This document shows, in pieces, positions 24,764 through 62,715 of a stretch of DNA of 64,000 bases. Made by a program: the position numbers and the translations under genes. The notes under the pieces were generated by a model, which ran no database searches, had not been told where the DNA came from, and saw nothing but the letters and a program-made list of their open reading frames with translations. Numbering within the stretch: position 1 is the stretch's first letter; each line of letters opens with the position of its first letter. Origin of the DNA: Nemopilema nomurai (lineage: Eukaryota > Cnidaria > Scyphozoa > Rhizostomeae > Rhizostomatidae); assembly GCA_003864495.1 (NCBI GenBank), contig ML133443.1, positions 2,984,949 through 3,048,948 on the forward strand. The letters are read 5' to 3'.

Positions 24764-24965
24764 GCAAATTATTCCCAAAACTCACAAGATATTGAAGTTC
24801 TCTATTCCCAAACGAGTTCTCTATCATTCCAAACTAAACAAAGCAAATTATTCCCAAAACTCCCAAGATATTGAAGTTCTCTATTCCCAAATAAGTTCTC
24901 TATCATTCCAAACTAAACAAAGCAAATTATTCCCAAAAGTATAAGTTCTCTATCATTCCAAACTT
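24764..24965. repeat. 79-bp tandem repeat, two full copies and one truncated
   Basis: Units start with gcaaattattcccaaaa at 24764, 24843 and 24922 (period 79); the third lacks its middle. Copies differ by only a few bases. Confidence 0.9.
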
Positions 24966-32370: not shown

Positions 32371-32872
32371 ATCACTCCGTTTTGAATCATTCTGTTTTCA
32401 AATCATTCTGTCTTAAAATCACTCCGTTTTCAAATAACTCAGTTTTAGAACCACTCAGTTTTCGAATCACTCTGTTTTCAAATCACTCCCTTTTAAATCA
32501 CTCTGTTTTCAAATCACTCTGTTTTCAAATCACTCCGTTTTCAAATCACTCCTTTTCAAATCACTCTGTTTTCAAATCACTCAGTTTCCAAATCACTCCC
32601 TTTCAAATCACTCCTTTCAAATCACTCCCTTTCAAATCACTCTGTTTTCAAATCACTATGTTTTCAAATCACTCTTTTTTTAAATCACTCCGTTTTCAAA
32701 TCACTCCGTTTTTAAATTAATCCGTTTTTAAATCACTCTGTTTTAAAATCACTCAGTTTCCAAATCACTCCCTTTTAAATCACTCTGTTTTCAAATCACT
32801 CTGTTTTAAAATCGCTCCGTTTCCAAACCACTCAGTTTACAAATCACTCCGTTTTCAAATCACTCTGTTTCA
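32371..32872. repeat. Minisatellite with 15-17 bp units (tcactc-gttttcaaa)
   Basis: About 30 units of the form atcactc(c/t)gttttcaa, with some units shortened to tcactccctttcaaa. A 124-codon plus-strand frame (FSNHSVFKSLCFQITPFSN) results purely from the repeat and is not called as a gene. Confidence 0.95.
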
Positions 32873-42999: not shown

Positions 43000-43005
43000 T
43001 TTATT
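43000..43005 (-). terminator. Possible polyadenylation signal of the Kv gene
   Basis: A perfect AATAAA on the minus strand, about 310 bases past the Kv stop and about 45 bases beyond the end of the 86-bp array. If used, the 3' UTR would carry the three extra array copies. Position and motif are seen; use is inferred. Confidence 0.4.
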
Positions 43006-43049
43006 GATAACCGGGTCAACTATTGTTATTCATTAGTCCCTGGAAATTA

Positions 43050-43393
43050 CGTGACTCTACACAACCGACTCCCGCTCAATCTGATCGGCATCTTCTTCAT
43101 TCAAGTCATTGTTATTCGAATACCATTGGCAGTCACGTGACTCTACACAACCGACTCCCACTCAATCTGATTGGCATCTTCTTCATTCAAGTCATTGTTA
43201 TTCGAATACCATTGGCAGTCACGTGACACTACACAACCGACTCCCGCTCAATCTGATTGGCATCTGCTTCATTCAAGTCATTGTTATTCGAATACCATTG
43301 GCAGTCACGTGACTCTACACAACCGACTCCCGCTCAATCTGATTGGCGTCTTCCTCGTGCAAGTCATTGTTATTCGAATGCCTGTCCCCGTGA
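43050..43393 (-). repeat. 86-bp tandem array built from the Kv C-terminal coding segment (4 copies)
   Basis: Units start at 43050, 43136, 43222 and 43308 (plus-strand coordinates), an exact 86-base period, each starting cgtgac(t/a)ctacacaaccg. The highest-coordinate unit (43308 onward) is the coding one and holds the Kv stop. The three lower units are closer to one another than to the coding unit (for example CTTGAAT against CTTGCAC, and ATTGGCAGTCA against a divergent end). Read on the minus strand in its own frame, every copy still encodes SNNNDL, a variable stretch, ESVV and a TAG stop. A degenerate half unit may precede 43050. Confidence 0.93.
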
Positions 43394-43713
43394 CCATTCT
43401 TCAGTAGTTTTCGTATGCGCTTGCTCACAACTCGGCCTTGGTTCTGAAGCCGCTTCAGCCTTTTCTGCCTTTCAATCAGCTCTTGTCGCCTATACTCAGT
43501 TCCCCCGTTGAGCATGGGATTTTGTTGTTCTTTCGAACTTGAATCCTCATTTTCAAAATCCTGCGTGATGAACTGATTAAACTTCCGTGCTCGCTCCCGC
43601 TGATAAAAGTAATCGAAGTTGGAGACGATAACTGGAACAGGCAGGGCGATTGTCAGCACTCCACAAACTGCGCATAGGCTTCCAATTACCTTTCCCGCGA
43701 AGGTATCTGGTAC
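43315..43713 (-). CDS. Kv channel exon B (S6, cytoplasmic tail, PDZ-ligand-like end)
   Basis: Begins [20 protein letters not shown] after acceptor acttctttcag and runs through S6 to a TAG stop at 43315-43317. The last 20 or so codons and the stop lie in the first (coding) unit of the 86-bp tandem array. Confidence 0.94.
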
Positions 43714-46282
43714 CTGAAAGAAGTAATAGATTTAGTCATGGTGAAGATTACCAATAAAATCAACATAATCTTAAGAATCTGTTTAATCAATCTGAATCTG
43801 GGCAAGATTGAGCCTTTTATGGTGAATTCACACTAAGCAGTCAAATTTGGTCTCTTAAGAAAAGCATACTGATATAAAAATTCTTAATCCATAGAAAGAT
43901 TCTCTTCCTTTGAACTCTACATGACACGTTCTGGACCTAGCTCAGATGAAAGACGGCCTAAATCTAAAAGCCGAAATCCTAGTCAATGCTAGGCGGGCCT
44001 TGGCATTTCATCTTGATACAGCTACTAAGGGAATCATTCAAAGCAAGTTCCACATTGTCATTCTAGTCATCGTTAGACTTGTCTCCACCCAAGCGTGTGA
44101 TGCCAAGTGAAAGGCGATCTAGACACAGCTAGCTGTCCTTTTTGTATGTTTTTAATTTGCTTTCGTTTCTGAATAATAGGATTATGATCATATGGCCCAC
44201 TTGAGATGACATTGTTCGTCGTAACATCTGCTACTGAGTTCTTTTCAGAACTTAATCCTTCGTATTTGATATCTCATTACTCTAGAACATCATAATCTGT
44301 CTTTCTCAGGTCACAAGAATCTCAGAAGAAGTAACTCAATGAGAGCCTACACTCTTCAAACGGGAGAGGCTTTAACGGTTCCACATATGGACTGGTACCA
44401 AAAGGCTTCAAAGCGCTCGCACTTGCGCAGTTAGGAACGATCCCTAATGGCTCGGCAAGATGCTACTGTGGAGGAGGAATATGCACAGAAGTCCGCTTTT
44501 GACACAATTGGCGCCAAAATCACCAAAACGAAGCAGTGTTGATGATTATTCTGACCATTGTAGGCCGCAAAAAAACTATGCCTTCTTTATTCTTCATTTT
44601 TCATTTGGCCCAAAGTGAAATGTGAAATGAGTTGCCAACAAATCAGTGTTTTGAACCCATAAAAAGCAGATAAAAGTATAAACTTTAATTATCTTCTATT
44701 TCATTTCTTTTTATTTTTTGGTCGGTTCAATATAGTTCTGGCGGTTTACGGGAGAGTCAAACGGAATGGACTCTAATGTCAAGAGTCAAGTTAAACCACT
44801 TTACAAGTTCTCGTGTAACGCTCTATCTATACTAGTTTTGGAACGATTACGTTTGATTCCGTGCCTCTTTTGATAAATTTGGGTTGAAGTCATAATATCA
44901 GCCTTGCGGCAAAATAATTCATCGACTTAAGGTGAGAATTGCAGTTTTGAATCAATTGCGAATATTTTTTTTTATCAAGCTCTTCAACGCCTTCTTTGTT
45001 CTTTGGATGCGCTTCTCTTTTGATTATCGTATCACTGATAGCATCTGATTGTATTGATAAAACAAATGGTGAAGCTATGAGCAAAATTCAATCGTATGAG
45101 ATACCAGCTACCTTTATAAAGCTACCTTCATAATTACATTGATCGTGATAATTTTTGAGTGTGATTACCTTGATCATTATGATACTTGATTACGATTATT
45201 TTGATCGTGATCATGTTGCCTTTGCATTATAATCACGTCGTTTATGATGGCGATAATACTTGGTAATGATTGCATCGTAATGATTTTTACTATAATTGCA
45301 TTGATTAAGTTTGGAGCCAAATTAATCATGACCTCATTGGTCACGAACTGTGACACAATCGATGCAAAGAAAGTGATTGTGATCTTTTGCCATAGGCACA
45401 ACTTAACACCTGTGCATGTAGCTGCGTCTTCAAATGAAGATTTCATTCAATTGATAATTAAAATAAACATAAACAACATTAAGCAAAGCTTTGATGGTTC
45501 AAAATGTTTACATGTTTGACTAAACAGCACCCATTCTTAATAATCTCCGAATCAGCGGCTCACCGTGTCAGCTTATAGAACAAAGTCTGACGCTAATTTC
45601 CCGAAATCGACAGAGCCCAGCCTAGAGTTGAACGTATATAATAACGAAGATAAATGCGAACCACTTTGATGTCCGAAGGGCCTTGTTAATAATGAATGTA
45701 AAAGTGAATATGTAAATGAAATTGAAAAGAGAACGAGGATGTTATCTTGCTGTGCAACGCCTTTTGGGTCACCACAGAACCTAGTCACTATGAAATATCC
45801 ACCTGATACAATGAAGTCGGAATCGGGGCCTATTCAGCAAAGATAATTAAACGGTTGATTGATTGAATCTTGAATTGCGGCTTGTCTGTAAGCTATAGTC
45901 ATTATGCTTATTAGCGTTTTCATGCAACAATATGTATTGTCTCTATGTAACATCACGCATGCCTAAATAACACAATATAAACATTCTTATTAGAGCTTAA
46001 ATAGGCTTGATTATCGTCAACCCTTGGAAGTTTCTTGATCGATCTAGGCAATGGCTCTAGAGATACGCTGTCTACTCATTTTCCATATAAACCTGCAAAT
46101 TAGCTCTTGGTATTCTAAGCTATTTGCTATGTGCCATGTTACAGCTTTTCTACTTTTTGCTTGGTTTTTCTTTATGATGTTTTGTATGAAATATGATATT
46201 CTAAATCATATGATAGCAGCGAGTTGTGGACAGAATACATGAAAGAAGCTCGACATTTAGAAGCATTGACAACTTAGAGTAG

Positions 46283-46328
<46 letters not shown>

Positions 46329-47813
46329 CGGTCCCTGCCTTTCATTGGTCAGAAACCTAGCCAATCACAACTCGTCACGTGATACACATTGGTAGACATT
46401 AGCTGGAAGAAGCGTAAACAGATACGCACCTTGTCACCGTAGCCCACTGTGCACATGGTGATAATGGCCCACCAGAAGGCATCTGGAATGCTCTGAAATG
46501 TCTGGTCCTCCACATAGTAAATTGCACTTGAGAACGATATCACTCCGATTAGCAAGAAGAAGATCAGCAGTCCCAGCTCTCTTATGCTGGCTTTCAAAGT
46601 TAGGCCTAAGATCTGCAAGCCGCGCGAGTGTCTTGACAATTTGAAAATCCTAAACACCCTTACTAGACGGATAATTCGTATGTTGTTGAGGCCTAGGCCC
46701 TGCTGATCAAATGCTAGGGTGATGTAGTACGGTATTATTGCAAGCAGATCTATAATGTTCATGCAGCTTTTCGCGAACTGCAGCTTGTTCGGGCATGATA
46801 AAAATCGGACGATGAACTCGAGAGTGAACCAGGCCACAATTCCAGTTTCGCAAAGCTCGAATATCTTCAGCCAGTTCGGGTTGGTTTGCTTCTTATTAGG
46901 CATAGCAGTGCTGGGAGCTTTGTGCATTCCGTCCGGCAGAGGCCGCGTATCGTTCTTGAACGGCAGGAAGGGCGGCAAGTGGGCGGTATTGAACATAGGC
47001 TGCCGCGCGGACGGGTATCGCGGGAAGTTATTGCGGCCAAAGGCCTTGACTGACGGCATGGGGTCTATGCCTTTGAAGAACGGCAAAGTTTCAATACACA
47101 GTATTGTTACTGAGCATATTATGATCAGAACTGAAAAGACAGTTAGAAGGTTTGCCGCAACTCCAGAGTCTGGTATTTCGAAGAGCTTCCAGATTTCCCT
47201 TTGCAGCCGGTTTTTCGGTAGCTCGCTAACCGCCGGGCCTTCATTGTCAAGTACCTGGTTCAAAGCGTCCTGCCCGAGCTCAAAGAACTTAATTTCCGCG
47301 ACAAGAACATGCAGCGGAACTGTAAGCGGGCAGTACACTTGCCCATCGGATTGGTAGAAGTAGAGGATCGCGGAGAACGCGTGGCGATCGCGGTCGAAAA
47401 AGTACTCCTTCTCTTCTTCCTCGAAAAATTGTTTCCTTTTGGTAGCATCTCCAAGCAACGTTTTCGGGAATCTTTCTAATGTCTCCTTATACGTCTGATA
47501 TTTCTCTCCGGATACGTTTATAGTTATTCGCTTCGGTTTTTGAACCGGTCCATCGCTTACTGAAATGGAGCCGCGCGGCGAAGAGCTTGCCGACGGTAAA
47601 TTCCCCGCTAGAAAAGAGCCGTTCAGCTTCGAGGACGCTCTGTTCAGGGTTGTGCGGGCGAAACTCCCCGACTCGATGGAGAGACTTCGCCGGTATTTGC
47701 TGAGCATCGCGTAGCGGCCGCGTTCCATTTGACTTGGAGCCATGGACCCTATGTTGCCATTCATGTTTATTATGAAAGAGAGGCGTTTGGCGTCCACTGA
47801 GAGCAGCAACAAC
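43315..47813 (-). CDS. Shaker/Kv1-type voltage-gated potassium channel, two coding exons
   Basis: Pore-forming subunit of a tetrameric voltage-gated K+ channel. CDS join on the minus strand: 47764-46430 and 43713-43315, 577 residues. Order: basic, Ser-rich N-terminus (1-75); T1 tetramerisation domain (about 78-170, [13 protein letters not shown] to EIKFFELG); S1 about 205-228; a long S1-S2 loop with N-glycosylation site N271-D-T; S2 about 298-322; S3 about 335-352; S4 with R363, R366, R369, R372, K375, R378, R381, the same spacing as Shaker; S5 about 394-416; pore with TVGYGD (439-444); S6 with the PVP motif (470-472). The tail has a basic coiled segment (about 518-550) and ends ESVV, a class I PDZ-ligand pattern. 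Start chosen at 47764; the frame stays open to the acceptor at 47814-47816, so an upstream exon could add residues. Confidence 0.95.
45400..45519 (+). pseudogene. Ankyrin-repeat-like fragment
   Basis: Reads [20 protein letters not shown] and, after a short Asn-rich stretch, DGSKCLHV followed by a stop. This follows the ankyrin pattern (TPLHxAA ... VxLLL ... DGxTpLH) for one repeat and the start of the next. An acceptor-like ccatag ends at 45394. It lies in the Kv intron on the opposite strand and no flanking repeats were seen, so a relic is likelier than a gene. Confidence 0.3.
46283..46329. repeat. (CAA)n microsatellite
   Basis: About 15 uninterrupted caa units in the Kv intron, 100 bases beyond the exon A donor. 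Confidence 0.97.
46430..47813 (-). CDS. Kv channel exon A (5' UTR end, T1 domain to selectivity filter)
   Basis: Acceptor tttctccttacag precedes 47813 on the minus strand; ATG at 47764; donor gtgcgt directly below 46430. The exon ends immediately after GYGDK, so the intron splits the gene right behind the selectivity filter. If unspliced, translation would run a further 27 codons into intron. Confidence 0.94.
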
Positions 47814-50800
47814 CTGTAAGGAGAAAGACACATTTAACAGTTTCTGCTTTTATGGATTCTGCCACAAAGGAAATAGGAAGAATCTCTAAAATTTGGGGGG
47901 GGGAGGCACACGAAAGCAGAACAGGGAAACGTTGAAAAATCTGGACAGCCCGTGTCTGTGCGTCCCCCCGGTTCTGATATATACGTTTGCAATTCAGTGA
48001 ATTGATGAAAATGGTGGAAACTGCTTGGAAGCTTTTGGTCCGAACACACGCAAAGACGTCGTCTTCTACTGCGACGTAAGGATGAGCTTTGAATGATCTC
48101 ATCATAGATTGTACTTCTTAATCATAGGATGGGTTGCGTTGTCTTCTGATTTCTCTCCAATGCATGCGTCGGCATATTTCATAAATAGATAACAGTGAGT
48201 AGCGGAAGGATCATCGTCCATAGAAACGTGTCTTTAATCTGCAAAAATCATTTATTAAAAGTCGCAGCGTGCGAATTACTTTGATCATGAGTTAAAAACT
48301 TCCCAAACTTTATGATAGCACCCTTTCTCGATTTGCATAAAAATAAGGGAGTAGAAGAGCTTTTTGATCATTGCATGGCAGTTTTCTAGTGATACCATCA
48401 ACATATTGTGGATCAGGTTGGGATGAAGTCACGTGATTGCTCTGAATGAAAGATCCTACTGCAAGGCTCCATTTTCACTGTAGCCACGAAAAAACTGTAC
48501 AGGCAGCTAAAAGTGAGTCCTAAATTGTTTCTAATTACGTTTAGGCTCCAAAAAGCACTTTAGCAAGTCGCTCACATTGACTTTAGCGAAAAGAAGTGTT
48601 ATGAATAATTCCATACAGTCCTATAAGTTTTGTTTAAGAAAGATTTGCGTTGCATTTTAGATAACGTTTGTCGAACCAACTTGAGTAGCCTGCGTGCCAT
48701 TAAATTCTAAAACACTGTTCAGGCAAGCGTTTATTGATGGTGATCAAGCCTCCAAGTAAGTGCGAAGGAATAACACAACACGTTGAAAGAATTAGTTGCT
48801 TAAAAAAGGAAACTTTAAATAACTAGAGAACTAAATCCAAATCTGTTTTAGGTCATGCATGTCCCCACAAGTAATCATGGTGCGCCTATTTGCATTCAAC
48901 TTCTTATCAAGCAAAAAAGACAGCCATTATGAGCAGCCCTTCCAAACCACAAGGCAGATAGCTATCTCCGGGTCAAATAGCTTAGATTTCATGACTCTTC
49001 CCATCAGATTAAACGGCTGCTAGTTTCTTGAAAATTTCTAGTTGAATAGTCCGAAAGGGAAATTTATGCCAAAGCTTAGGCACATTTCTGGTCATCGTTA
49101 GAGTAATTAGCCCAAGTTGCTGATTAATAAACTGATGTTAAATGATAGAAATGAATTATTGCTCTTCATTGCATTTATTTGTTCAGCATGGTACGCGTTT
49201 TGAAGTTGATGGAAAAAGTCTGAATGTTAATAAGCAGGACTGAACGATGATCCTGTGATTTTTCTAGGATGCTCCTTACACGCCTTTACAGAGGCCAACG
49301 TTGAATACCTAGCCCGAATATGAAAACAAAAATGCCAGTGATGCATAAAATAGCAATTGTTTTGAATTTTTCGAAAGGTTCTTTGTCTAGGGCTTTTTTC
49401 TGAGATACCACCAGATTCAGGGCTGAAGTGGAAATATCATTTGAAATCTGCAAAATGAAACTAAGGTGACATTATTAACCATTCAAATCATTGTCTGGTT
49501 GGGACTATAATTAAAGATTTTAAATTCAAATTGACTATAAGCAACGTTCTACTTTTCATGAAATATGTGCCAAATTTCTTACAGCTATTCATCACACTTT
49601 GCATTAATGAGATTAATTAGAATCAGTAATTTAACCTGAATTTTTCAAATTAGCCTAATTGGTTAGCTTAATGCTATGAAAATTTTCCTTCCACAGACTT
49701 AATCTCTTCAGGTCTCATTCAAATTTTAAATGAGTGTATATTTGTCAAATTTACAATCCTGCTTAAGTAAAGAGCCTCAAAATCTTGGTCCCAAAATCTT
49801 GCTTGGTTCGTGAAAAGTTTCCAAGAAACGACTTGCAAATCTTGTCCAATAAACAAACATGTCAAAAAAGAGTTTCATAAGAGGTCGAGTTAAAACTTAT
49901 TTAAACACTTATCGACGGTGCTAAAATGTTTTTGACAAAAAAGCAACTCAATGCCCTGGCCAAAAATCAAACAACGACCTGTTCAAAGTATAGTAGTAAT
50001 CGAAAAGCATCAAAGGCAATTACATAGCAATATATTTCATCCTGTCCTCAAAGCGTCGATAGCTACTCGATGAACTTGGCAATGGAACTCGTACTCGGGA
50101 CCGCCTTTTTTATGAAATTTTTGGTGTTAGATTAAACGTATCAAATAAATTTGTCGGTCGAATAAGTGTCGGATTAGTCGAAAAATTGTCAGATGCGACT
50201 CAGGAAATTCATCTTGTTCAAAGAAAATCTCTGAAGACACGTAAGTTCTGTTTTTCTGTGATTCGAGCTTGTCGAGTGTGTTGCAATGCAGTTGGCGTGG
50301 GAGTGAGCTATCTTATTGCAAGTAATCAAAGATCATTTTGCAGCGGTCGGTTATGAAATGTCGATTGATCAAGTCGTGCCTAAAGAAATTAAGCCAAAAA
50401 TCGTTCGTCTACATGAATTTAGGAGTTGCGACTAGAAACATCTTTGCTTTCAATATCCCTCTAACATTTGGAGTGGTTAGCAATGGACACCAAAACTAGA
50501 CAAGATCGTTTGCAATGTCAAATGTGTTAGAGATAAGAAATTTCTGGATATTAGAGGAAAAGTATTACAAACTGGGACAAAAAATAGGACGAGGTACCAA
50601 TTGTTATGATACATTGTTAAACATGAATTATAAGATTGTTTGAATTGTTTCTGGGACAATGAACTCAATAATCTGTTCATCTTTTTATCAAAGAGCTGCA
50701 TGCGAAATTTTGAGGCATAATTTCTAAACAGTCATATATGCTTTTACTCAACTTCCTACTGGTTGGTTGTGAGATCACAAGGCAGCAAAGGTCAAAGATG

Positions 50801-62179: not shown

Positions 62180-62715
62180 TGTAGAAACGAGTTGTGATGG
62201 GTTTCTACCGATTACATTGCTCAACCTCTGTGGACGATTCGAGCTAAGCCAGGTCAAACAGAGCCAGGTCGAGAAAGACGACGCGCTGCCTGTTGTATTC
62301 TATAGATTTGAATGGGACTCTGTGACTCTGACTTAATTATCTGCACTTTATAATTACATTTATACTGCTGTTCCAAAAATGAATTTGCTAACAAATGGCG
62401 TGAAATGATGATAAAATGATGATGTAATCAGAATAGAAAAGTCTAAGCCGAAAAGCAAAAAAAATGCATTGTAGAAACGAGTTGAGATGTGTTTCTACTG
62501 ACTGCGTTGCCCAACCTCTATGGACGATCCGAGCCAAAGTTGTCTTGTTTAACGTGCAGAGAACACGGAGCCAGGCCGAGAGAGAGAAACGATGCGTTGC
62601 CTGTTGTGTTCTGTAGCTCTGCTTCTGACTGAACTGAACTTTACAATTCTATTTATATTGATTATTCTAAAAACAAATTTGCTGACAAATGACATAAAAG
62701 GATGATACTGTAGGA
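62180..62715. repeat. 290-bp tandem duplication, two diverged copies
   Basis: Copies begin tgtagaaacgagttg at 62180 and 62470. Both contain caacctctgtggacgat or caacctctatggacgat, then gagccaggtcgaga or gagccaggccgaga, then gttgcctgttgt-ttct, then aatttgct-acaaatg. Copy A lacks about 20 bases (cttgtttaacgtgcagaga) present in copy B. Confidence 0.8.

Follow-up and report, generated by a model that had tools for sequence, protein, structure and literature searches.

The human SLC6A3 (DAT1) gene carries a 40-bp VNTR in its 3' UTR, and the last exon of the human CEL gene contains a coding VNTR whose repeats are translated. The array analysed here lies at the end of a potassium channel gene of a jellyfish, in a stretch of 64,000 nucleotides (the window) that corresponds to positions 2984949-3048948 of contig C77. 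It resembles the 3'-end VNTR of SLC6A3/DAT1 in its head-to-tail units of tens of bases, in its position in a (predicted) 3' UTR and in a unit number that varies between locus copies. Unlike SLC6A3/DAT1, however, its first unit takes in the last part of the coding sequence together with the stop codon, and each unit consequently has a stopped tail frame. With CEL-type coding VNTRs it shares the location of the repeat at the C-terminal end of the gene, but only the first unit of the jellyfish array would be translated and the protein would be unaffected by unit number. A limited search of the literature on repeats and stop codons, minisatellite exchange, and cnidarian genomes and channels found no stop-spanning array, although a precedent may exist. 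The array belongs to a known class of repeats, the minisatellites or VNTRs. We conclude that it is very probably a stop-codon-spanning minisatellite of variable unit number, likely neutral, that lies in a predicted 3' UTR; we infer this neutrality, the mechanism of its duplication and the transcription of the array.

The channel gene and its C-terminal tail

The gene lies on the minus strand, comprises at least two exons and encodes a Shaker-type (Kv1-like) voltage-gated potassium channel. Its upstream exon encodes a T1/BTB domain followed by the transmembrane region and the filter up to GYGDK, and ends at a GT donor. The last coding exon belongs to an open reading frame at 43315-43731 (minus strand, stop included), in which the Pfam Ion_trans match falls below the curated cut-off. 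The T1/BTB domain, the six-segment ion-transport domain and the GYGD filter of Shaker/Kv1 channels are all present, the placement in the Kv1 subfamily being that of the best match rather than of a tree. The best relatives of solved structure (PDB) were Kv1.2 and Shaker, and among the best 120 of 3985 matches all those with a name were channels from animals, in many cases cnidarians; the top eight matches were unnamed.

The likeness to Shaker/Kv1 channels extends from the T1/BTB and ion-transport domains to the class-I-PDZ-like end of the protein. The Drosophila Shaker C-terminus is ETDV, versus ESVV in the jellyfish channel. ESVV has the C-terminal S/T-x-V of class I PDZ ligands, a sequence motif that points to putative binding. 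We read the ends of 11 last-exon relatives out of 27 matches (P0129 was excluded from the alignment): eight ended in RESVV, one in RETVV and two in neither (P0129 and P0130). The longer relative P0009 also ended in ESVV; in P0029 and P0031, which are more distant, the end was ETGV. Judged from these relatives, ESVV is an ancient and conserved terminus; its fit to a PDZ ligand agrees with the preliminary description, which had called the tail PDZ-ligand-like.

An 86-base array across the stop codon

Tandem Repeats Finder reported an array at 43049-43379 with a period of 86, 3.8 copies, 95% matches, 0% indels and a score of 606. Head-to-tail units of tens of bases, as found here, are those of a minisatellite. 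Four units could be delimited, with starts spaced by exactly 86, 86 and 86 bases, and the stop codon of the channel lies within the first of them (Table 1). Both the exact 86-base, four-unit structure and the position of the stop had been proposed in the preliminary description and were borne out. The span proposed for the array, 43050..43393, needs a small correction: its final 14 bases (43380-43393) belong to the coding sequence and match the spacer of the other units only in part. At the other end, the spacer of unit 3 departs from the repeat after AGTCACGT, placing the end of the repeat at about 43049.

Table 1. Positions in the window of the channel exons, the array units and associated elements.
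Feature	Position	Strand	Basis
Upstream exon, open frame	46430..47833	-	ORF 46349-47833; Pfam BTB_2 and Ion_trans
Last coding exon, VPDTF...ERESVV	43318..43713	-	ORF, acceptor, relatives
Stop codon TAG, within unit 0	43315..43317	-	ORF reading
Unit 0: coding tail, stop, spacer	43294..43379	-	Tandem Repeats Finder and unit alignment
Unit 1, open tail frame	43208..43293	-	Unit alignment and translation
Unit 2, open tail frame	43122..43207	-	Unit alignment and translation
Unit 3, open tail frame	43036..43121	-	Tandem Repeats Finder, unit alignment, translation
Spacer palindrome GTCACGTGAC	43304..43313, 43218-43227, 43132-43141	.	Pattern search
AATAAA, likely poly(A) signal past array	43000..43005	-	Sequence only

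The tail frame SNNNDL...ESVV, followed by a stop, was found in all four units of the window. When 74 bases of each unit were compared, 3-4 sites differed between any two of the downstream units, and 5-6 between a downstream unit and the coding unit; the downstream units are thus closer to each other than to the coding unit, as had been claimed, and the recent expansion proposed for them is supported. Between GTCACG and ATTCG, the coding copy falls 5 bases short of the other units. A second mid-size tandem array is present in the window at 24764-24938 (period 79, 2.2 copies, 96% matches).

The first AATAAA after the stop codon sits beyond the array, which places the extra units in the predicted 3' UTR. 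A search for nine poly(A)-signal hexamers between the stop and this AATAAA revealed none. The earlier proposal that the extra units belong to the 3' UTR if this signal is used is therefore supported, as a prediction from the DNA. Read-through of the TAG codon would add 13 codons (SHVTANGIRITMT) before a TGA, and would leave the ESVV end buried, not repeated.

A second copy of the locus

A counterpart of the locus was found on contig C56. Its array contains seven units, versus four on C77, and their spacing is again exactly 86 bases. The sequences surrounding the two arrays were compared: no base out of 396 differed in the last exon, 2 out of 1401 in the upstream exon and 6 out of 1541 in the 3' flank, and the intron was 97.0% identical (23 mismatches and 16 gaps in 2739 columns). 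Units 0, 1 and last were identical between the two contigs over the 74 bases compared, and the inner units varied in number and sequence. The few differences in the 3' flank and their absence from the last exon indicate that unit number changed much faster than bases. With four and seven units in the two copies, unit number may be polymorphic within the species, as it would be if C56 and C77 are alleles.

Both ends of the window matched C56 in order, and 30 kb between them, compared directly, showed 92 to 98.6% identity by piece. Pieces of C77 taken further out, at 2.80, 2.89 and 3.1455 Mb, had no match on C56, so that the C56 copy may be a retained haplotype with different surroundings, a segmental duplicate of recent origin or the product of a misjoin. 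The window also contains a 16-base array of about 32 copies (32371-32870), whose C56 counterpart is among the least conserved stretches of the compared 30 kb.

Arrays can be mis-sized in assemblies, and the evidence used here is the assembly rather than raw reads. An assembly artefact in the array nevertheless appears extremely unlikely, as the array is present on two contigs, in each with ordered units that vary internally, and its edge units are identical on both.

The second copy also bears on the tails. The preliminary description had stated that ESVV and a stop are kept in all copies; this held for the four units of the window, but two of the six downstream units on C56 read DSVV. In the downstream units the ESVV stretch was altered in this one way only, E to D, and always ended in SVV. 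All nine downstream units of the two locus copies displayed an open tail frame ending in SVV, then a stop. This is what would be seen if the downstream units stored alternative C-termini that are swapped into the coding unit by unequal exchange or gene conversion, with the PDZ-binding end kept; by reasoning, exchange at equivalent points would always preserve the frame. If this were true, repeat turnover would be a simple way to edit the PDZ-binding tail of the channel. Such a reservoir of tails is, however, very improbable in view of two results. The coding unit was identical in both locus copies, and its four differences were found in no downstream unit, so that exchange into the coding unit is not visible. 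Of a replacement of the coding tail by exchange or conversion, suggested earlier, these two locus copies show no trace. In addition, the tail codons of the downstream units of both copies contained four distinct substitutions, of which none was synonymous and all four were amino-acid-changing; a neutral model predicts 23% synonymous changes, and in a sample this small a neutral array would give such an outcome with a probability of about 0.35, or roughly once in three. The idea that selection keeps the tail in the extra units predicted a bias to synonymous changes and did not find it here, although the test is weak. In appearance the extra units are recent copies rather than maintained tails. 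Nothing in the substitutions points to constraint on their tail frame, although with only four substitutions a weak constraint may still be present.

A broader version of the same explanation makes the array a live, contraction-safe C-terminus cassette, in which tail variants (E to A, R to W, ESVV to DSVV) are occasionally swapped in, the PDZ-binding end is never lost, and unit number may in addition tune expression through the spacer palindromes. We give this combination very little credence.

Origin and possible roles of the extra units

In the reading that we prefer, that of a probably neutral minisatellite, a local tandem duplication would have copied the last 20-odd codons (about 80 bases), the stop and a few bases of 3' UTR, and slippage or unequal exchange would then have increased and reduced the number of the resulting 86-base units. 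Translation would be limited to unit 0, the other ESVV frames being inherited look-alikes with only a putative role. The duplication may have been seeded at short direct repeats: GTCACG is present in the coding tail and just 3' of the stop, and GAATAACAAT is present in the tail and a second time beyond the last unit, at a distance of 86 bases. The spacer between units resembles the post-array sequence at its start (AGTCACGT) and the preceding coding sequence at its end (ATTCGAATAACAAT), and its alignments to the post-array and coding sequences score equally (16.5).

Although the period of 86 is no multiple of three, exchange between units at equivalent points leaves the frame and the stop intact; contraction is therefore harmless, and the array can persist without function. 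The earlier remark that homologous exchange keeps the tail in frame was correct, but it is true for any stop-spanning array. If the array is neutral, it is a small and clear case of a variable repeat that arose across a stop codon and that can contract without harm to the protein. Its spare copies would, moreover, seem to hold an older residue that has since changed in the coding tail: all downstream units have Asn where the coding unit has His, and Asn is also found in the 80%-identical relative P0121.

We also considered that the array may be older and longer than its recent inner part, with decayed units running past it into the poly(A) region. Words in register with the repeat occur beyond the array (GAATAACAAT and CAATCAGA), and the score of this region was reached by 0/150 and 20/2000 shuffles, and by 5/400 and 4/400 under two scorings. 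Under a third scoring, however, 66/400 shuffles reached it. Among 416 further stretches of the window, 3, 6 and 51 scored as well under the three scorings. Furthermore, the first word would be explained by short direct repeats that seeded the duplication. Upstream of the array no signal of decayed units was obtained, 127/150 shuffles being as good. An older, longer array is thus unlikely; the decayed units past the array are suggestive but depend on the scoring, and we do not claim them.

The palindrome GTCACGTGAC in the spacer, which we liken to an E-box-like site, raised the alternative that the array is a copy-number-dependent regulatory element, in which the palindrome or the repeated 3' UTR tunes expression. 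Exact matches to GTCACGTGAC occur three times in the window, all within the array, and with one mismatch five matches were found versus 0.83 expected, a number that none of 100 shuffles reached. These copies are not independent, however, because they represent one junction multiplied by the array, and one of the six C56 spacers has lost the palindrome (CACATG). Folding of the array RNA did not reveal any structure signal either: it was no more stable than shuffled sequences (z -0.26; 38/100 shuffles folded equally well or better). A regulatory role of this kind therefore seems highly unlikely.

When the 213-Mb genome was searched for the array, the matches listed contained only the window locus and its C56 counterpart, which sets the number of such loci at two or more (at least). 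The 20-base spacer pattern, with up to two mismatches, gave 10 matches, nine in the two arrays and one, with 2 mismatches, on contig C61. Comparison of the plus-strand open reading frame of the array with predicted proteins yielded no candidate, a weak test that addresses proteins and not the DNA of relatives. Apart from the window locus and its counterpart, the genome contains 17 Kv-like last-exon matches (19 rows minus these two). Tandem Repeats Finder detected arrays in five of these 17 loci (about 3 kb each), with periods of 5 to 40; an 86-base period was found in none of the 17, which amounts to a partial test for stop-spanning arrays. In one of them (L014), repeats of periods 20 and 40, at 1309-1389 and 1719-1798, flank the matching exon; these short repeats are unrelated to the 86-base unit.

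Two arrays with a period of at least 40 were counted in the window, the 86-base array and that at 24764-24938 (a third row reported for the window re-describes the 86-base array), against one in six other stretches that total 60 kb; the frequency, based on 124 kb, is a rough one. Such arrays are thus not rare in this genome, and one would expect some stop codons to lie inside them. Repeats of another type are also present in the window: a dispersed repeat of about 220-250 bases, at about 62460-62710, has at least 40 matches of 84-90% identity on many contigs.
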